From: a virus
Direction: 5' to 3' (one strand)
Virus record (IMG/VR): IMGVR_UViG_3300034374_002499
Location: 1 to 21,496 of that record
DNA length: 21,496 nt
Shown here: positions 6,522-14,083 of the stretch, piece after piece
Numbering within the stretch: position 1 is the first letter of the stretch
Layout: every line of letters starts with the position of its first letter
Position numbers and translations under genes: made by a program
The notes under the pieces: generated by a model
The model's input: only the letters and a program-made list of their open reading frames with translations
The model's database searches: none
What the model was told of the DNA's origin: nothing

Positions 6522-6572
6522 TGCGCCATAATTGCGCCATATTGCGCCATAATTGCGCCACAATTGCGCCAT
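6522..6572. repeat. Five GCGCCA iterons
   Basis: GCGCCA occurs at 6523, 6534, 6544, 6555 and 6566, spaced 11, 10, 11 and 11 bases, within the repeated unit TTGCGCCATAA (minus strand TTATGGCGCAA). The spacing is close to one helical turn, so proteins bound at all five would sit on one face of the DNA. Confidence 0.8.
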
Positions 6573-6655
6573 ATATACACATTTATGTATTATTTACGCC
6601 AAAATACATTAATTTGTTTACTTTATAAGTCATTACCTAGCACTTTCTACAGAAA

Positions 6656-8046: not shown

Positions 8047-8064
8047 GGGCCGCTTACGCGACCC
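8047..8064 (-). other. Stop-codon hairpin with GUAA loop (copy A)
   Basis: The minus-strand RNA folds as GGGUCGC, loop GUAA, GCGGCCC (seven pairs, one G-U). The UAA of the loop is the stop codon of the 67-residue gene and GUAA is a GNRA tetraloop. GGAGGGA for the next gene follows directly. A counterpart lies at 13841-13856. Confidence 0.65.
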
Positions 8065-8261: not shown

Positions 8262-8303
8262 TTTCCCTCTCAGTTAGTGGGTCTCCCTGACCCGACGAGA
8301 GAA
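8262..8303 (-). other. Structured leader with hairpin and masked ribosome site (copy A)
   Basis: The minus-strand leader has a hairpin GGGTC-AGGGA-GACCC (8279-8293). The flanks TTCTCTC (8297-8303) and GAGGGAA (8263-8269) can pair over seven bases, covering the ribosome site of the following gene. The copy at 14005-14046 has the same plan with a changed but still paired inner stem. Confidence 0.65.
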
Positions 8304-8342
8304 TTGTATGATACCTTTTACTGTGCTGTCTACCTTTCTATG
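8303..8342 (-). promoter_or_regulatory. Promoter-like block (copy A)
   Basis: TAGACA (complement of 8327-8332) is followed after 18 bases by TACAAT (complement of 8303-8308), five of six to the -10 consensus. It lies within CATAGAAAGGTAGACA, which is identical in copy B. The upstream end abuts the ninG stop codon. The identical 16-base block may be a regulator or phage sigma-like site. Confidence 0.55.
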
Positions 8343-8349
8343 CACATTT

Positions 8350-8754
8350 TTATATGTTTTTGTGTAATTCTTTTTCTCTCTCTTTCAACTCCTTAATCAG
8401 ATCCTCGATTTCGGTCCGGTAATACTTCTTTGTCTGGCGCTTGGTTTCGCTTAGCCAGTCAACAAACTCCTGACCGTAAGTCTCTCTCATGTACCGTGCG
8501 TAATCATCGTGGATCTTATGAGCGAACCGATTACAGCCCTTGCACTGCGGATGAACGTTCTCTTCTAATAGCTTGTGCGCCGTGTAGGTCCGAGAGATGT
8601 AATGACCACCGTCCATATTCTTCCAGTGATCAACTTTCCCGCAGGTAACGCACTTGCAGTACCCGTTCTCATCTGCGGCCTTCATGCGAACTATCCGTTG
8701 CAGAATAGTCGCGGCGTCCTCAACAAGGCCGGCTATCGTCTTCTTTTTTGTCAT
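8350..8754 (-). CDS. ninG: NinG recombination protein
   Basis: The 134 residues are short compared with lambda NinG but the core is typical: LQRIVRMKAADENGYCKC at 19-35 with C33, C35 and C38, GGHYISR at 49-55 and ENVHPQCKGCN at 65-75 with C71 and C74, followed by a helical lysine-rich tail. The cysteines and the HNH-like arrangement imply zinc binding. NinG (Rap) acts in recombination, probably on branched DNA. It overlaps the upstream zinc-ribbon gene. An ERF annealing gene in the same window supports a phage recombination role. The last codons form part of the block repeated upstream of leader B. Confidence 0.9.
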   Translation of the reverse strand: MTKKKTIAGLVEDAATILQRIVRMKAADENGYCKCVTCGKVDHWKNMDGGHYISRTYTAHKLLEENVHPQCKGCNRFAHKIHDDYARYMRETYGQEFVDWLSETKRQTKKYYRTEIEDLIKELKEREKELHKNI

Positions 8755-8902
8755 TTTGAGTAAATAACCTCTCTCTCCCTATGGCCGGCGTGAAGTGTAG
8801 ACAGCTAGTGCACACCCACCCCTTTAGCCTAAAATCATCCTGCGCCTTGAACACCTCTTCCATCTGCACATCGCAGTCATCGCACATCATTATCGCTATC
8901 AT
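8720..8902 (-). CDS. Small zinc-ribbon protein
   Basis: The 60-residue protein has two CxxC knuckles (C7-C10 and C31-C34), spaced as in zinc ribbons. The start ATG overlaps the stop of the metallophosphoesterase gene (ATGA) and the end overlaps ninG by 35 bases. Its partners in the operon are DNA-metabolism proteins, so a nucleic-acid-binding accessory role is plausible but not shown. Confidence 0.75.
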   Translation of the reverse strand: MIAIMMCDDCDVQMEEVFKAQDDFRLKGWVCTSCLHFTPAIGRERLFTQNDKKEDDSRPC

Positions 8903-10056
8903 CTTGGCCTCACTGTCGTTCTGTGGATTTCTCCGTCTGTTTTATGGTACGTAATAATTTTAGCCCCGCGCATCGAAACCCACCCTCCGCGTGCCGTATA
9001 GGAATCCCTAGCTGACAAGGTTGGGTGCTGTTCCGCTATGGCGCCAGCGTCCTCAACCACCCTTTCATGGTGGTAATGACCTGTATGAATGTAGGTCTGG
9101 CTTGCCCGCCCCCACATCGACCTGAACCTCGGCTCGCTGGCAAACAGCTTATGTAATTGCTGAAGCTTAACCTTGTGACCGTGGTGAAATCCAAGCATGA
9201 TCTCGCCGTGCAGGTAAGCGTAGTAAGGGAACTCGTTATCAATGACCTCTAGGCGCTTCTCTTTCGCATACTCACGCTTAATAGCCTTTCTTAGCCAAAC
9301 CGATCCGGCCATATCGTGGTTGCCTTCTGCCTGAACAACGACCACCTTACCAAAATGCTTGAGCATTAGATCGACTGCGTGAGTCATTACCTCAAGAGTC
9401 AACTCAACCAGCTTAGCGTAGCGGGTATCGGCGTCTAAAATATGCCCAGAACTTGGGGTTACCTGTAGCAATGAATCAAAGTGCAAGAAGTCACCTAACT
9501 GGCACAGTATCCCAACATCGGATCTTGGGCTTGCGTCAATCATGTCATTAACCGCATTCAAGAAAGTACTCTTGGCTATGCTTATATCCCAACTGTCGCC
9601 TGCCTCGGCTTCCCAAGCGTACATCCCTAAATGAAAGTCAGTAATAACTAGAAGACTGCACAGGTCTTCATCTGTGTTATCCGGCTTAGGTATTGGCTCG
9701 AATGGCTTAATGCTCTCAGAGGCGTTCTCAATGGCCTCTAGGACGATTTGTAATTGTCTTTCTTTGTCTGCGTCAGACTTGACCCACTGGATGACCGGCG
9801 CCCCGTCTTTATAAAGTGTAGATGTACCCTTGACCTTATAGCCATCAGGCACCGTGTGAATCATATCGTGCTGTGGAGAAAAGCCTTTGATTGCGGCTAA
9901 ATTTCTAACCCTTTTGCAAATTTGCTGTACGTTTCGCCCAGCGATTCCAATCTCGTTTGCGATTTCTCTAACAGACATACCATGCAAACGCATCTCGATT
10001 ACCTGCCTTTGCCGCTCTGTTTCGCAAAACGCTAACAGCCCACCCCAGTCATTCAT
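8899..10056 (-). CDS. HTH plus metallophosphoesterase (Mre11/SbcD-like)
   Basis: The 385-residue protein has an HTH of sigma-70 region 4 or LuxR type at about 13-50 (ERQRQVIEMRLHGMSVREIA, then AGRNVQQICKRV). A linker leads to a calcineurin-like phosphoesterase with all metal motifs: D140 and H142 (TDFHLG), D189 (LGDFLH), N246-H247 (EGNHD), H292 to H294 (FHHGH) and H327 to H330 (HTGHYHH). Such proteins hydrolyse phosphodiesters with two metals; phage members resemble DNA repair exonucleases. The HTH suggests sequence- or structure-specific DNA targeting. AAGGTG precedes the ATG. Neighbours (ninG, ERF) fit replication and recombination. The substrate is unproven. Confidence 0.88.
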   Translation of the reverse strand: MNDWGGLLAFCETERQRQVIEMRLHGMSVREIANEIGIAGRNVQQICKRVRNLAAIKGFSPQHDMIHTVPDGYKVKGTSTLYKDGAPVIQWVKSDADKERQLQIVLEAIENASESIKPFEPIPKPDNTDEDLCSLLVITDFHLGMYAWEAEAGDSWDISIAKSTFLNAVNDMIDASPRSDVGILCQLGDFLHFDSLLQVTPSSGHILDADTRYAKLVELTLEVMTHAVDLMLKHFGKVVVVQAEGNHDMAGSVWLRKAIKREYAKEKRLEVIDNEFPYYAYLHGEIMLGFHHGHKVKLQQLHKLFASEPRFRSMWGRASQTYIHTGHYHHERVVEDAGAIAEQHPTLSARDSYTARGGWVSMRGAKIITYHKTDGEIHRTTVRPR

Positions 10057-10065
10057 ATTGTCACC

Positions 10066-10392
10066 TTAGGTCTGATACGAACTTGCGGCCCTTTCATTGG
10101 CCTGCTCTGTTCGCCATGCCTCGAACGATAGCTTTGCCGCATCATACACCACTTTAGCCTTAATTGCCTCCATACGGGCGTCTATGGCGTCCTCGCGCAG
10201 TTTTCTGTACTCGTAGTCGGCCTCGGCTCGCATCTCTGCCTCAGCGACACCACAACCGGCGTCTTTGTGTTGTAGTGCTATCTTGGCCTTAACTGATTTA
10301 ACTGCGGCCTCTAGCAGGTTTGCCGCGTGCTCCTTGTCCGCCCAATCTGACCCGACTGTCACCAGCCTTTCGTACACGCTTTTTGGATTCAT
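10066..10392 (-). CDS. Helical phage protein in the recombination block
   Basis: The 108-residue protein is nearly all helix: SDWADKEHAANLLEAAVKSV near 15-34, then EAEMRAEADYEYRKLREDAI and AKLSFEAWRTEQANERAA. This arrangement is familiar from short phage proteins encoded beside recombination genes; the function is unknown to me. ATG 10392 overlaps the stop of the 124-codon frame upstream (ATGA). A coiled coil over residues ~50-95 is likely. Confidence 0.75.
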   Translation of the reverse strand: MNPKSVYERLVTVGSDWADKEHAANLLEAAVKSVKAKIALQHKDAGCGVAEAEMRAEADYEYRKLREDAIDARMEAIKAKVVYDAAKLSFEAWRTEQANERAASSYQT

Positions 10393-10519
10393 ACGCTATC
10401 TCCACATGTTTCTTCACCAGCTCCCTCAAGTGCTCTGGCACGTCTGAAAGCATCTCTCGCCGCCTGTCCAGCGATTGCTGGGATACTATCTCCCGAGCAT
10501 AGCTCCTCGGCCACCTCAC
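10298..10519 (-). CDS. Overlapping frame with a conserved VPEHLRELVKKHVE motif
   Basis: A frame starting at GTG 10519 (AGAGG seven bases upstream, in-frame TAA just before) gives 73 residues. Residues 7-46 include SYAREIVSQQSLDRRREMLS and DVPEHLRELVKKHVEIAYES, which I recognise as a conserved pattern of short phage proteins. The tail after about residue 46 looks unconserved and overlaps the 108-residue gene. The first 131 bases overlap another open frame (10389-10763). Either both are translated or one frame holds only the true end of a frameshifted gene. Confidence 0.6.
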   Translation of the reverse strand: MRWPRSYAREIVSQQSLDRRREMLSDVPEHLRELVKKHVEIAYESKKRVRKAGDSRVRLGGQGARGKPARGRS

Positions 10520-10763
10520 TTATCCACCTCTGTCTTAGCCATGTATGTCCTGCCCTCTGATAAGTTTCGCTACGCTTTCCAAGAGCACTGCTCTTAATTA
10601 AGCCCCTGCGGTGCATCTCCCTCAGGACATCCAGAAGCCGGCTAGAGTGCTTGGTCGTAGCAACCAACTCAAGCATCTCAGCCGCAGACCATGTAGCACC
10701 AGATCTGTATAAACTGGTGCTCATTACCTCTTTTATTTGGTCGTCAGTTGAATACCTAGCCAT
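10389..10763 (-). CDS. Winged-helix-like protein with doubtful C-terminus
   Basis: The 124-residue frame has an N-terminal part (SGATWSAAEMLELV, LLDVLREMHRRGLI, then a basic stretch) that looks like a winged-helix DNA-binding domain over residues ~20-75. From about residue 82 it overlaps another frame that carries a conserved motif, and its own C-terminus (rich in A, G and E) looks less typical. The ATG overlaps the end of the upstream gene by eight bases. DNA binding in replication control is plausible. The C-terminal third may not be real protein. Confidence 0.6.
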   Translation of the reverse strand: MARYSTDDQIKEVMSTSLYRSGATWSAAEMLELVATTKHSSRLLDVLREMHRRGLIKSSALGKRSETYQRAGHTWLRQRWISEVAEELCSGDSIPAIAGQAARDAFRRARALEGAGEETCGDSV

Positions 10764-11109
10764 CGTATGCCTGCCCGTACTTAGACTCGTAAATCGCCTT
10801 CATATGAGCCTTTTCTGGGCCAGAGAGCCAACTTATGTCGCTAAGGTCGTCTAGGTGAGACCTGTCTCTTAAAGACTTCTTTTTAGGACTCTGTATCGGA
10901 GAAGAGCCGCCTTGATCTTGCGCACGTGATAACCACGAGTTAATGAACCTCTTAATACCAGCCTTGGTCTTACGCCGTGAAGGGTTAGCGTCGAGCCAAC
11001 TCTCCATCTTCGCAAGTTCCGCGAATACATCCACTTTTGGATAGGTTTTTTGCCATTGAATGATGTCTGCATCATCTGCCTCCCATGTTTCTCCAGTGTT
11101 TAAAATCAT
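10756..11109 (-). CDS. O-type replication protein fragment
   Basis: The 117-residue protein contains IIQWQKTYPKVDVFAELAKM and ESWLDANPSRRKTKAGIKRF followed by INSWLSRAQDQGG. This block is characteristic of the C-terminal part of phage replication proteins of the O or DnaT-like kind. The usual N-terminal winged-helix origin-binding domain is absent here, though the next gene downstream has a winged-helix look. ATG 11109 overlaps the upstream stop (ATGA), and is preferred over a GTG at 11127. It may recruit the host helicase; this is inferred. Confidence 0.7.
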   Translation of the reverse strand: MILNTGETWEADDADIIQWQKTYPKVDVFAELAKMESWLDANPSRRKTKAGIKRFINSWLSRAQDQGGSSPIQSPKKKSLRDRSHLDDLSDISWLSGPEKAHMKAIYESKYGQAYDG

Positions 11110-11276
11110 TTCTTTTTCAGCTCCCACTGAGAATTCCCTGTGTGACCCAATCTATATACCTTTTGTAGCGTATACTTGATTGCAAAGTTTAGCTCGCTAT
11201 CTTCGCTTTCAAGTTTGTCGATTAGCTCATTGATTACGATTTTTCGTATCTGGCTCTTTGTTAGATCTACCTGCAT
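11106..11276 (-). CDS. 56-residue hypothetical protein
   Basis: This short gene fills the gap between two longer genes. It reads MQVDLTKSQIRKIVINELID and ends with QWELKKK. ATG 11276 follows the upstream TAA directly, with GAGGAGG eight bases before it, and its TGA overlaps the next ATG. The product is helical and charged, without a recognised family. Confidence 0.75.
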   Translation of the reverse strand: MQVDLTKSQIRKIVINELIDKLESEDSELNFAIKYTLQKVYRLGHTGNSQWELKKK

Positions 11277-11576
11277 TTACTCATCCTCCTCAGAGTAAAC
11301 TATCTTATTTCTTTCCGCGATTAGCTTTCGTTGAATCTTTCTCAGGTCGCCCATGTGAAAGTCGCAGTAGTTGCAATCAATCAGTCTAATCATCAAGCCT
11401 TGATCATCAAATACATCTGACAAGGTTATCAAGGCAGAGCCGTCATCGCCATCGGTGTACATTATTGACTCCTCTACCTGAATCGAGCTTGGATCGAATG
11501 TCTGCCTGAAGTCATAAAATTCATCGGCATCTTTGAACCCGAAAACTTTAATCTGCTCAAGATCGTGCTCTTTCAT
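11277..11576 (-). CDS. Acidic hypothetical protein
   Basis: The 99-residue protein starts MKEHDLEQIKVFGFKDADEF and is strongly acidic, with a central beta-rich part (ALITLSDVFDDQGLMIRLID) and C74 and C77 in DCNYCDF. ATG 11576 is chosen because it overlaps the upstream stop (ATGA) and has GGAGG eight bases upstream; an ATG at 11591 is less well placed. The acidity suggests possible DNA mimicry or a protein partner, but this is only a compositional remark. Confidence 0.7.
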   Translation of the reverse strand: MKEHDLEQIKVFGFKDADEFYDFRQTFDPSSIQVEESIMYTDGDDGSALITLSDVFDDQGLMIRLIDCNYCDFHMGDLRKIQRKLIAERNKIVYSEEDE

Positions 11577-11782
11577 TTCAGCATCCTCCACTCAGCAATC
11601 GAGACCTTCTCGCCGTACCGGTTTAAAACCGTTTTCCGGCTTGTCAGTATCGAGTGACCTTTCGACTTAAGTTCAGAGATTCTTGCAGGCGCCTCAAGGA
11701 TTCCCAATTCGGACCATGCGTTTAGTCTGGTCAGAACATTCCCCTCCTGCAAATAACTAAGGATTCTTTCTTGCTGTTTCAT
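11573..11782 (-). CDS. HTH_39-type DNA-binding protein
   Basis: The 69-residue protein has the pattern of the phage HTH_39 family: QERILSYLQEGNVLTRLNAW, then ELGILEAPARISELKSKGHS and a wing ILTSRKTVLNRYGEKVSIAEW. It covers the whole protein, so this is a stand-alone winged helix. GGAGG lies six bases before the ATG. Such proteins often regulate phage early genes or excision. Confidence 0.8.
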   Translation of the reverse strand: MKQQERILSYLQEGNVLTRLNAWSELGILEAPARISELKSKGHSILTSRKTVLNRYGEKVSIAEWRMLK

Positions 11783-11792
11783 AACTCACCTC

Positions 11793-11996
11793 CTAGTGAA
11801 TAATCTCGGTTTCCCGAGCCTCTTTTGCAATGTCGTCAGCCAGATCTAAGATAATGTCCTCGAACACGTCTTTTGGGTAGTTACCAATGATCCCCAATCT
11901 GTCTTCGTTAACAACCATCACAAATACTATCGACTCGCTGTTCATCAGCTCGTCAAGCGTTTTCAGTAGTTCTTGTTTATTCATTGATTTACTCAC
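11793..11996 (-). CDS. Hypothetical protein, mixed fold
   Basis: The 67-residue protein has an N-terminal helix (NKQELLKTLDELMN), a strand pair (SIVFVMVVNEDRLGIIGNY) and an acidic helix (DVFEDIILDLADDIAKEARE). GTG 11996 has GGGAG seven bases upstream and overlaps the preceding stop; ATG 11984 is the alternative. No family recognised. Confidence 0.7.
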   Translation of the reverse strand: MSKSMNKQELLKTLDELMNSESIVFVMVVNEDRLGIIGNYPKDVFEDIILDLADDIAKEARETEIIH

Positions 11997-12243
11997 TTTT
12001 AAACTCCCACACTTTCCCTTTTGATGTCCTAGCGGACACCACTAAGTTAATTAATACTGACGAGCTGTGATTAACGTATCGAATCTTGACATCTATCCGC
12101 TTGACCTGCTCTCGGCCTGCGGGGCGCATCATGGAGAGGGTCAACTCCGTCTCTGGGGTTCTTCGGTTCCCCAGCCTAACGCCCGTTAATCTCTGCGATT
12201 TTGATGTTGTGCTTACAACTGGTGGGAGGCAAACTACGTACAT
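11989..12243 (-). CDS. Hypothetical basic protein, start uncertain
   Basis: The frame from ATG 12243 gives 84 residues. The second half (QVKRIDVKIRYVNHSSSVLI, NLVVSARTSKGKVWEFKSE) looks like a genuine beta-rich protein. The N-terminal half is basic and lacks clear features. No ribosome site precedes any start; an upstream TTG at 12291 lies in the hairpin zone. A promoter-like TTGCAC with TATCAT 17 bases later would start RNA near the ATG, so a nearly leaderless message is possible. The same DNA may encode a plus-strand structured RNA, so the call is tentative. Confidence 0.45.
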   Translation of the reverse strand: MYVVCLPPVVSTTSKSQRLTGVRLGNRRTPETELTLSMMRPAGREQVKRIDVKIRYVNHSSSVLINLVVSARTSKGKVWEFKSE

Positions 12244-12293
12244 CATTGTTAATCGCACACCAATGATACCCCCGCACTCCCTCCAGTGCAACC

Positions 12294-12321
12294 GCCCCCG
12301 CCTCCCTCGGGGGCTTTTTTT
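12294..12321 (+). terminator. Rho-independent terminator facing plus-strand RNA
   Basis: GCCCCCG, seven-base loop, CGGGGGC, then seven T on the plus strand. The T run overlaps the stop codon of the XRE gene on the other strand. In the minus direction there is no T run after the stem, so it serves a plus-strand transcript. A second small hairpin (GCACT, six bases, AGTGC) lies just before it. Confidence 0.7.
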
Positions 12322-12523
12322 AATAACTAAGAAAGTCCTTTATGTCCACGCCTAGCGCAGTGCAGACCTTGAACACAGTAGACAGCTTCATATCCTTTGC
12401 CGTTCGATAATCCTGAACACGACTCCGGCCAACTCCCATTCGTTCAGCCAGCTCTGTATTAGACACGTTCTGAGCGGCCTGAGCGATCCGTATGGACCGC
12501 CCTACATCAAAATGGTATGTCAT
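12320..12523 (-). CDS. XRE-family (Cro/CI-like) regulator
   Basis: The 67-residue protein is a minimal HTH_3 domain: VGRSIRIAQAAQNVSNTELA, ERMGVGRSRVQDYRTAKDMK, then STVFKVCTALGVDIKDFLSY. Helices 2 and 3 are about residues 21-39. There is no dimerisation or cleavage domain, so it is more like a Cro-type or accessory repressor. ATG 12523 overlaps the end of the upstream gene; an in-frame ATG at 12535 is also possible. The plus-strand terminator begins at its stop codon. Targets are unknown. Confidence 0.85.
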   Translation of the reverse strand: MTYHFDVGRSIRIAQAAQNVSNTELAERMGVGRSRVQDYRTAKDMKLSTVFKVCTALGVDIKDFLSY

Positions 12524-12761
12524 CGCTAAAGTCATCCTCTACAAACTGCTTGGCCTGTTTTAGCGCCGGCTTCGCAACCGCATCTTTTGGCTTAACGGAC
12601 AGGCTGAAAAACTTCTTGCCCTGCTTGGATTGTTTTATCCAGCCGGACAGATAGTGATCAACCCCGTCCACGTCTATCGAACCCGTGAAGTCTGGATGCT
12701 TCTCAGACTCTTTCTTGTCATTGCGGAAAAGAACCCCGCGATTAGTGTTATCGTACTCCAT
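12507..12761 (-). CDS. Small protein with SSB-like acidic tail
   Basis: The 84-residue protein reads MEYDNTNRGVLFRNDKKESE, then GSIDVDGVDHYLSGWIKQSK and GKKFFSLSVKPKD, a beta-rich pattern like DUF736 and related phage proteins. The C-terminus, VEDDFSDDIPF, closely resembles the acidic DDDIPF tip of bacterial SSB that recruits repair proteins. It follows the ERF gene by one base. A single-strand DNA-binding role beside ERF is likely but inferred from the tail and context; no OB fold can be proved by eye. Confidence 0.7.
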   Translation of the reverse strand: MEYDNTNRGVLFRNDKKESEKHPDFTGSIDVDGVDHYLSGWIKQSKQGKKFFSLSVKPKDAVAKPALKQAKQFVEDDFSDDIPF

Positions 12762-12762
12762 G

Positions 12763-13383
12763 CTACTCTCCTGTTGCAGTTCTAAATTCGGTTGACTTCA
12801 TTATCAACCGTTCTTCTGTGGTGAAACATCCACCCTTGCTTGGCGCCTTCCATAGACCAATTTTCTCTTCCTCGGTGAGTTCGTCCCAAGCCTCTTTCGC
12901 CATGACCAAGTCACCGATTTGAATACCCGTTTTAATTGCCTCGATTGAGTCGGCTAGCTTGTCGCACAGCTCTTGGTACTCGTCTTTATGATTGTTGGTT
13001 GCGTCAGCATCCTTTGTATCGTCAATACAAAACAACCCATTCAGCGCATACTTACGAGCATACGAACTGGCCGCGCCAGTAATCTGTGATTCATCCATGC
13101 CTTTTTTAGATTCAGGCTCGCGAGCCAAAGCCTTTACCTCTATACCATATCCGCCAACGGAATCGCCTAAACGCGCTGTAGCCTCTACGTAAACGCGCCC
13201 ACCGATCTCACGTATGTCATCGCTAATGGTCAGCACACAATCGCCCAGAAGCGGTTTTACGGCCTCCAGAATGTCTTCGCACGAGCGATACTTGTAGCCG
13301 CCGAACTTGTTCACTTGACCTTTCGGCGCCTTGAGTTTCTGCTGAATAACGGCAAGTTTTTGGCTTATATGTAAATTAGTCAC
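12763..13383 (-). CDS. erf: ERF-family single-strand annealing protein
   Basis: This 206-residue protein pairs complementary single strands during phage recombination, typically with a 5'-3' exonuclease. Signature segments: LKAPKGQVNKFGGYKYRSCE at 17-36, AVKPLLGDC at 41-49, VYVEATA and the hallmark MDESQITGAASSYARKYALN at 96-115 followed by GLFCIDDTKDAD. GTG 13383 is preferred over ATG 13416 because AAGGAGG is six bases upstream and the usual family N-terminus begins there. It overlaps the preceding gene by eight bases. No partner exonuclease of the lambda type is seen; the metallophosphoesterase is a possible stand-in. Confidence 0.93.
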   Translation of the reverse strand: MTNLHISQKLAVIQQKLKAPKGQVNKFGGYKYRSCEDILEAVKPLLGDCVLTISDDIREIGGRVYVEATARLGDSVGGYGIEVKALAREPESKKGMDESQITGAASSYARKYALNGLFCIDDTKDADATNNHKDEYQELCDKLADSIEAIKTGIQIGDLVMAKEAWDELTEEEKIGLWKAPSKGGCFTTEERLIMKSTEFRTATGE

Positions 13384-13669
13384 TGTGACCCTCCTTAATT
13401 TGAAACGCTTCTTCAAGAAGCACTCGGTTTACAGCGCGAAATAGCGCCTCTTTATTCTCATCAATACACGCCTCGAATATGTCACTCATACGCGATTCCA
13501 TTAGCTTGACAGCCTCCTTGCTATCCTTGGCCGGTAAATACTCACCGATCATCAGCTCCCAAAGGTAGTTTGGATTCTCGCGTGCGTTATCGACCAGTAT
13601 CGTGTTCGCACAATCCCAGCAGTATTTGTCGTTATCAACGACTGCTGTACCACATCCATTACACTTCAT
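13376..13669 (-). CDS. Zinc-ribbon protein upstream of ERF
   Basis: The 97-residue protein begins MKCNGCGTAVVDNDKYCWDC, with two CxxC pairs (C3-C6 and C17-C20) forming a compact zinc ribbon. The rest is helical and acidic. ATG 13669 is chosen because AGGGAG precedes it and the frame further upstream (to 13765) overlaps another gene. It overlaps both neighbours. Zinc ribbons of this kind bind nucleic acid or proteins; the role here is unknown. Confidence 0.75.
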   Translation of the reverse strand: MKCNGCGTAVVDNDKYCWDCANTILVDNARENPNYLWELMIGEYLPAKDSKEAVKLMESRMSDIFEACIDENKEALFRAVNRVLLEEAFQIKEGHSD

Positions 13670-13823
13670 AACTTGCTCCCTGCATTGCGATCTCAGCGTA
13701 GCCATCCGCAAACCCACGTAGGTAGGCATCGCTCTCCTCTCTTGGTTGTGAAAAAAACTCTGCATCGGTGTAGCCTACAAAGTAGACCCACTCCTGAACT
13801 TCTTGATTGGTTAAATCGTCCAT
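13659..13823 (-). CDS. 54-residue hypothetical protein
   Basis: The product reads MDDLTNQEVQEWVYFVGYTD, then AEFFSQPREESDAYLRGFAD and GYAEIAMQGASYEV. The pattern of aromatic and acidic residues with YLRGFADGYAE looks like a small folded phage protein. ATG 13823 has GGAGG five bases upstream, just after the stop-codon hairpin of the preceding gene. It overlaps the next gene by 11 bases. Confidence 0.7.
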   Translation of the reverse strand: MDDLTNQEVQEWVYFVGYTDAEFFSQPREESDAYLRGFADGYAEIAMQGASYEV

Positions 13824-13840
13824 GTCTCCCTCCAGAGAAT

Positions 13841-13856
13841 GGCCGCTTACGCGGCC
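13841..13856 (-). other. Stop-codon hairpin with GUAA loop (copy B)
   Basis: The minus-strand RNA forms GGCCGC, loop GUAA, GCGGCC, six perfect pairs. The UAA is the stop codon of the 50-residue gene. GGAGGGA follows. Compared with copy A at 8047-8064 a U-G pair is replaced by C-G, so pairing is kept. Confidence 0.65.
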
Positions 13857-13999
13857 TTGTCTATCAGTTTTGTTAAAGCTTTGTTTAGCTTCTCCTCGCT
13901 TTTTTGTAGAAGGCCAAGGCTTTGTGATGTGCCTTTTTCAATGTGAAGCGCTAGCGCCCAGTCGTACATTTTTTTTGCCGCTTTTACTGATTTTTCCAT
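13847..13999 (-). CDS. First gene after leader B, 50-residue basic protein
   Basis: The product reads MEKSVKAAKKMYDWALALHI, then a helical, lysine-rich remainder ending KLIDKAA. It is the first gene behind leader B, preceded by GAGAGGGAA. It shows no resemblance to the first gene behind leader A. Its role is unknown; the position after an early-type promoter suggests an accessory or host-takeover peptide. Confidence 0.7.
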   Translation of the reverse strand: MEKSVKAAKKMYDWALALHIEKGTSQSLGLLQKSEEKLNKALTKLIDKAA

Positions 14000-14003
14000 T
14001 TTA

Positions 14004-14046
14004 CTTCCCTCTCAGTTAATGGCGCTCCCTGCGCCGACAAGAGAAG
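14004..14046 (-). other. Structured leader with hairpin and masked ribosome site (copy B)
   Basis: The inner hairpin is GGCGC-AGGGA-GCGCC (14021-14035). CTTCTCT can pair with AGGGAAG over the ribosome site. Compared with copy A two inner base pairs differ (G-C to C-G and U-A to G-C) while the AGGGA loop is unchanged. Confidence 0.65.
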
Positions 14047-14083
14047 TATCTCAAAAAACAGGACGTGTGTCTACCTTTCTATG
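14045..14083 (-). promoter_or_regulatory. Promoter-like block (copy B)
   Basis: TAGACA (complement of 14068-14073) and GATACT (complement of 14045-14050) are 17 bases apart. The -10 match is weak (four of six), but the upstream block CATAGAAAGGTAGACA is identical to copy A. This would drive the early or recombination operon starting at 13999. Confidence 0.5.

Follow-up and report, generated by a model that had tools for sequence, protein, structure and literature searches.

A promoter-linked, covarying RNA hairpin fronts arrays of swappable small genes in many environmental phages

We found that two repeated minus-strand stretches of a 21.5-kb virus record (the whole stretch of DNA analysed, hereafter the window) each comprise a real promoter and a short structured RNA leader, and that such leaders front strings of swappable tiny genes in many environmental phages. 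Observation supports four properties of the system: a covarying hairpin, its constant position with respect to the promoter, its link with a second hairpin built around stop codons, and changing neighbours of the gene cassettes behind it. Our leading explanation, to which we assign a probability of roughly one half, is that the whole forms a modular expression and boundary cassette in which a hairpin at the 5' end would protect the mRNA.

The window carries genes for a terminase, a portal protein, a major head protein, an Erf-like protein, an exonuclease, NinG/Rap and a lysozyme. Copy A is preceded by NinG and copy B by the lysozyme gene. Both display the same minus-strand order: promoter, purine, UC, a 5-bp hairpin with an AGGGA loop, a linker, GAGAGGGAA and a start codon (Table 1). 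They are collinear over about 100 nt (48 nt at 77% plus 51 nt at 82%). The original prediction had singled out a 16-base block common to both, and CATAGAAAGGTAGACA does occur exactly in each copy, with a chance expectation of 0.20 sites in the window when up to three mismatches are allowed. Its promoter-like elements are sigma-70-like (TAGACA-18-TACAAT in copy A, TAGACA-17-GATACT in copy B), and the hairpin that it had described twice, with two stem base pairs differing on both sides, formed in the predicted folds of both copies. The genes behind the leaders extend past the limits first proposed, to hairpins at their stop codons. Separately, tandem TGCGCCATAAT-like repeats lie between operons at 6522-6574 of the window and are possibly iterons or protein-binding sites.

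Table 1. Positions of leader, cassette and stop-hairpin features in the window, and of hammerhead-like sequences in other viral loci.
Feature	Position	Strand	Remark
Copy A -35-like hexamer TAGACA	8327..8332	-	end of shared block 8327-8342
Copy A -10-like hexamer TACAAT	8303..8308	-	
Copy A probable transcription start, G	8296	-	7 nt after -10; inferred from 49 distinct promoters
Copy A leader hairpin GGGTC-AGGGA-GACCC	8279..8293	-	+4 of inferred transcript
Copy A Shine-Dalgarno region GAGAGGGAA	8263..8271	-	
Cassette A gene, 67 aa	8054..8257	-	without Pfam or PHROG match
Stop-codon hairpin GGTCGC-GTAA-GCGGCC	8048..8063	-	closes cassette A
Array A second gene, 171 aa	7519..8034	-	preceded by stop hairpin and SD GGAGGGA
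Copy B -35-like hexamer TAGACA	14068..14073	-	end of shared block 14068-14083
Copy B -10-like hexamer GATACT	14045..14050	-	
Copy B probable transcription start, G	14038	-	inferred
Copy B leader hairpin GGCGC-AGGGA-GCGCC	14021..14035	-	
Copy B Shine-Dalgarno region GAGAGGGAA	14005..14013	-	
Cassette B gene, 50 aa	13847..13999	-	without Pfam or PHROG match
Stop-codon hairpin GGCCGC-GTAA-GCGGCC	13841..13856	-	closes cassette B
Array B second gene, 54 aa	13659..13823	-	
Hammerhead-like sequences	L250 1905 and 1455	-	
Hammerhead-like sequence	L354 1851	+	
Hammerhead-like sequence	L265 8268	-	
Hammerhead-like sequences, other loci	L219, L247, L251, L200, L369, L376, L378, L379, L380		

Relatives of the leader were collected by exact and degenerate scans of viral contigs, from protein-anchored loci, and by a scan in which the loop and the inner stem pairs were left free. 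The last pattern revealed at least 59 further 5-bp leaders on at least 58 viral contigs; these counts are lower bounds, and many of the contigs are closely related to one another. Over all fetched loci it gave at least 67 distinct matches with a stem of 4 bp or more, four of which look like chance (they have neither promoter nor gene), and at least 34 with shorter stems. Among the matches listed, GGCTG-GGGACA-CAGCC is the commonest form, and the stem is preserved across leaders while the loop changes. In an alignment of 21 distinct leaders, 96.2% of cells pair and three of the five base pairs show changes on both sides, counts that are raised because the rows were picked as distinct and stem-bearing. 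The covariation score of this alignment was 0.604, compared with 0.132 after shuffling and at most 0.106 in slid controls, and RNAalifold predicted the same stem unprompted; for most rows the search pattern itself had set the outer GG/CC of the stem. The search for further copies with compensatory changes was successful, and the proposal of a conserved RNA element in which pairing rather than sequence is kept holds up well.

No Rfam 15 covariance model matched at the leader, in the window and six relatives, up to E = 1, and the leader is an RNA family absent from Rfam 15. Descriptions of the leader and the stop-codon hairpin were not found in the open-licence literature, which is weak evidence of novelty because only open-licence papers were covered. 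One cultured phage, Aeromonas phage 59.1, carries a leader copy (E = 1e-6), located at 31,111-31,155 of KY290950. Other versions of the leader and stop hairpin gave weak, short matches only in BLAST searches of cultured phages; a Klebsiella phage match (E = 8) was not counted, as its hairpin would begin directly at the -10 element. Octadecabacter Antarctic DB virus 2, which is the window's closest structural relative, does not have the elements. Turning to genome contigs for hosts, a search with the NinG protein found nothing, and four sequences that match the class II hairpin exactly have no linker and look like chance. In five further loci (L165, L181, L215, L237 and L152) the first gene of the array carries another kind of hairpin near the likely start, for example GTCGGG-GATGT-CCCGAC, which suggests further leader classes.

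The position of the hairpin relative to the promoter is nearly invariant. When pairs of -35 and -10 elements were scored upstream of 49 distinct leaders with the distance left unconstrained, the -10 element ended exactly 7 nt upstream of TCGG in 44 promoters, 6 nt in three and 8 nt in two. The base preceding TCGG was always a purine (A in 42, G in 7) and is likely the transcription start. Taking it as +1, the hairpin would begin at +4, and the spacing in these promoters would put the start of the stem no more than about 4 nt from the mRNA 5' end.

We then consider what stands behind the leader. It opens an array of small genes that are mostly unrelated between phages. The first of them usually ends in AA (or VA), since its stop codon sits in the loop of GCCGC-RTAA-GCGGC. 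Hairpins of this form were seen at both window sites (Table 1) and in L140-L257. Among the matches listed, with stems of 3 bp or less serving as an internal control, a leader followed by a stop-hairpin gene was found in 48 of the 67 matches whose stem has 4 bp or more and in none of the 34 with shorter stems, a contrast partly helped by selection as some loci were fetched through the stop hairpin. Many loci fetched by the loop-free leader scan alone also end in a stop hairpin. An ORF of at least 40 aa lay downstream of 62 of the 67 and 8 of the 34 matches listed, respectively. Across 47 leader-bearing contigs chosen without regard to the stop hairpin, 32 of 1460 ORF ends had the stop codon within a 5-bp Watson-Crick hairpin, and 30 of these were GCCGCRTAAGCGGC. 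For comparison, the opposite strand gave 2 of 1456, and stop trinucleotides away from ORF ends gave 20 of 15,593. The pattern of a stop hairpin with GGAG was present on at least 120 viral contigs. From all fetched loci, 224 stop-hairpin genes fell into 115 protein clusters with a median of 73 aa, and 190 of them end in AA. Pfam returned no family above cut-off for ten proteins, six of them representatives of cassette clusters. Intrinsic terminators carry a T-run behind the stem; on the coding strand the window stop hairpins have none, and no minus-strand terminator was called at either of them.

The arrays occupy a recurrent place, and their cassettes change neighbours. Among 28 contigs carrying both a relative of the exonuclease/NinG gene and a relative of the terminase gene, the leader lay between the two in 27, in either orientation; this tally ignores strand, and requiring the same strand reduces it to 7 of 28. 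Flanked by the phrog_704 exonuclease/NinG region on one side and the terminase genes on the other, the cassette array is an accessory-gene locus, and copy B of the window group marks a second site, between lysozyme and Erf. The cassette starting MTNQQYAAEK is first in L005 and second in L009. Another cassette, MNDSQYLEIL, occupies position A in both L005 and L119; in L002 it seems to begin at position B, where only four codons precede the contig end. Further cassettes were also found in differing contexts.

In some arrays a hammerhead-like sequence instead takes the place at the stop codon. With a descriptor for stems I, II and III, a CUGANGA...GAAA core and a UH cleavage site, we identified 13 distinct sequences of this kind among the fetched viral loci; the window has none. 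In 11 of the 13, stem I directly adjoins or overlaps the stop codon of the ORF before it (offset -3 or +3), and most of the sequences are then followed by a leader-type linker and ribosome binding site. The latter association is built into five of them (L369, L376, L378, L379 and L380), which were fetched with AAGGGAG required downstream, and the other eight were free of such selection. Rfam gave a weak, sub-threshold match for one hammerhead-like sequence.

Under the leading explanation, each copy would stand at the head of an array of small genes. Transcription would begin from a host-type promoter at the purine 3 nt before the G+C-rich hairpin, giving an mRNA that begins 5'-RUC-hairpin and continues with a short linker, an exposed Shine-Dalgarno sequence (AGGGA) and the start codon. 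Such a 5'-terminal stem-loop would hinder decay that depends on the 5' end (RppH/RNase E) and would provide a standard leader to any gene placed behind it. The leader and the stop-codon hairpin, or a hammerhead in some phages, would also supply shared sequence where cassettes exchange. We favour protection because a hairpin at the probable +4 together with an open ribosome binding site would match 5'-terminal stabilising stem-loops, of which protective examples are known in E. coli (work referenced in PMC3997798). Additional support comes from the hammerhead-like modules, which take an equivalent place between stop codon and ribosome binding site. Homologous exchange at the boundary hairpins is suggested by the changed neighbours of cassettes rather than by mapped junctions.

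A broader and more tentative proposal, which we regard as possible though doubtful, is that leader hairpin, stop-codon hairpin and hammerhead are interchangeable RNA junction modules, each with a similar linker to the ribosome binding site, that would make inserted small genes express independently of their neighbours and would be coupled to cassette exchange. If true, they would be a natural counterpart of engineered gene-expression insulators. In an equilibrium folding test of 30 stop-hairpin modules, each placed in 20 upstream contexts, the opening energy of the ribosome binding site was 7.23 with the native hairpin, 6.93 when it was scrambled and 6.71 when it was deleted (sd 1.79, 1.81 and 1.89). 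Insulation of the ribosome binding site by the stop hairpin is therefore not supported, as the hairpin left this energy unaffected.

The loop itself would also suit a different function. A host CsrA dimer might bind the loop GGA as in glgC, bridge to the GGA of the Shine-Dalgarno sequence and block the ribosome, and strong transcription might even titrate CsrA. The AGGGA loop conforms to A(N)GGA, and work cited in PMC4005645 reports pentaloops of this sequence as high-affinity RsmE targets. The glgC leader has the same order, a loop site and then a Shine-Dalgarno site, with bridging over 10-63 nt (PMC7652899); both window copies have GGA in the loop upstream of the Shine-Dalgarno sequence, with a gap of 17 nt between the two GGA, and the gap is 15-19 nt in relatives that have the pair. 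Of 14 loop types, 9 contain GGA, where 4.9 would be expected (p 0.014); this is a counter-point to pure protection, which needs no GGA. However, GGA is absent from the loops ACAGG, ACGGG, ACAAC, GAGACA and GAGGCA of relatives, the commonest loop among the matches listed (GGGACA) lacks the A of ANGGA, and Shine-Dalgarno sequences contain GGA regardless. Phage-encoded CsrA was found in none of 25 records. The window structural genes resemble those of phages of Rhodobacterales (likely alphaproteobacterial relatives), an order that, to our knowledge, mostly lacks CsrA. Cumulatively, we consider regulation by CsrA or RsmA unlikely.

It is also conceivable that the conserved sequences matter mainly as DNA, as boundary homologies for Erf-type cassette swaps, with RNA structure secondary. 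The stop hairpin is kept in sequence and not in pairing alone, as seen in the predominance of GCCGCRTAAGCGGC, and occurs in 115 protein clusters; leader linkers and stop linkers are alike within one phage, and an Erf-like gene is present in the window. Yet the leader stem covaries, which recombination homology would not need, and the leader has a fixed position relative to the promoter; we judge this reading improbable.

The original prediction envisaged a switch in which TTCTCT pairs with the Shine-Dalgarno sequence and is released under some condition. The pairing is possible on paper and appears in the predicted fold if TTCTCT is transcribed. The switch nevertheless fared poorly: TTCTCT lies at -7 to -2, between the -10 element and the probable +1, and would thus be untranscribed, and it is replaced in relatives, by TTGGACTC in L018 and by TAGGTCTT and TGAATTT in L045. 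Promoter geometry therefore makes the switch very improbable. The accompanying claim of direct evidence for control of translation was too strong, as the hairpin lies directly upstream of the Shine-Dalgarno sequence and does not sequester it. Least credible is a recent duplication of an ordinary promoter with an RNA devoid of any role: the 77-82% likeness of the window copies would fit it, but the stems covary and the arrangement is kept on at least 58 other contigs and in the cultured Aeromonas phage.

The leader family is linked with a large reservoir of small phage genes that are unannotated and have the stop-codon hairpin in common. The two boundary elements are simple sequence markers by which arrays of accessory genes in metagenomic phages can be found and delimited. 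They also raise the question of how newly exchanged genes stay well expressed in phages.

Phage morons are small accessory genes with their own promoter that are exchanged between phages, and mosaic phage genomes have boundary sequences. The cassettes probably share these traits of morons; we know of no description of morons or mosaicism in which a shared stop-codon hairpin ends unrelated genes. Stabilising stem-loops of the ompA/papA type would, given the probable start site, resemble the leader in having a hairpin a few nucleotides from the mRNA 5' end and a free ribosome binding site downstream. Unlike them, the leader is common to unrelated small genes, its covarying stem is fixed to the promoter, and its stabilising effect is putative. 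Leaders targeted by CsrA/RsmA, such as glgC, likewise have a loop GGA just upstream of a GGA-containing Shine-Dalgarno sequence at a bridgeable distance, whereas the present leader belongs to phage genes, several relatives are without the loop GGA, and CsrA binding is hypothetical. The SAS/ESAS elements of cluster K mycobacteriophages are short repeats of unknown function directly upstream of many start codons, some with an added inverted repeat (PMC3203893), a position like that of the leader. The ESAS repeats are 17-bp imperfect inverted repeats, mostly with a spacer of 4-13 bp (PMC3203893), whereas the leader has a 5-bp stem at the probable +4 and, unlike SAS/ESAS, a partner element that wraps the stop codon. 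Phage hammerheads near genes are known from haloviruses HF1/HF2 and from a triple array flanking ardA in Agrobacterium (PMC3088659). Like these, the candidate hammerheads of the related arrays lie between or just upstream of phage genes; unlike them, most directly adjoin a stop codon and then have a leader-type linker to the ribosome binding site.
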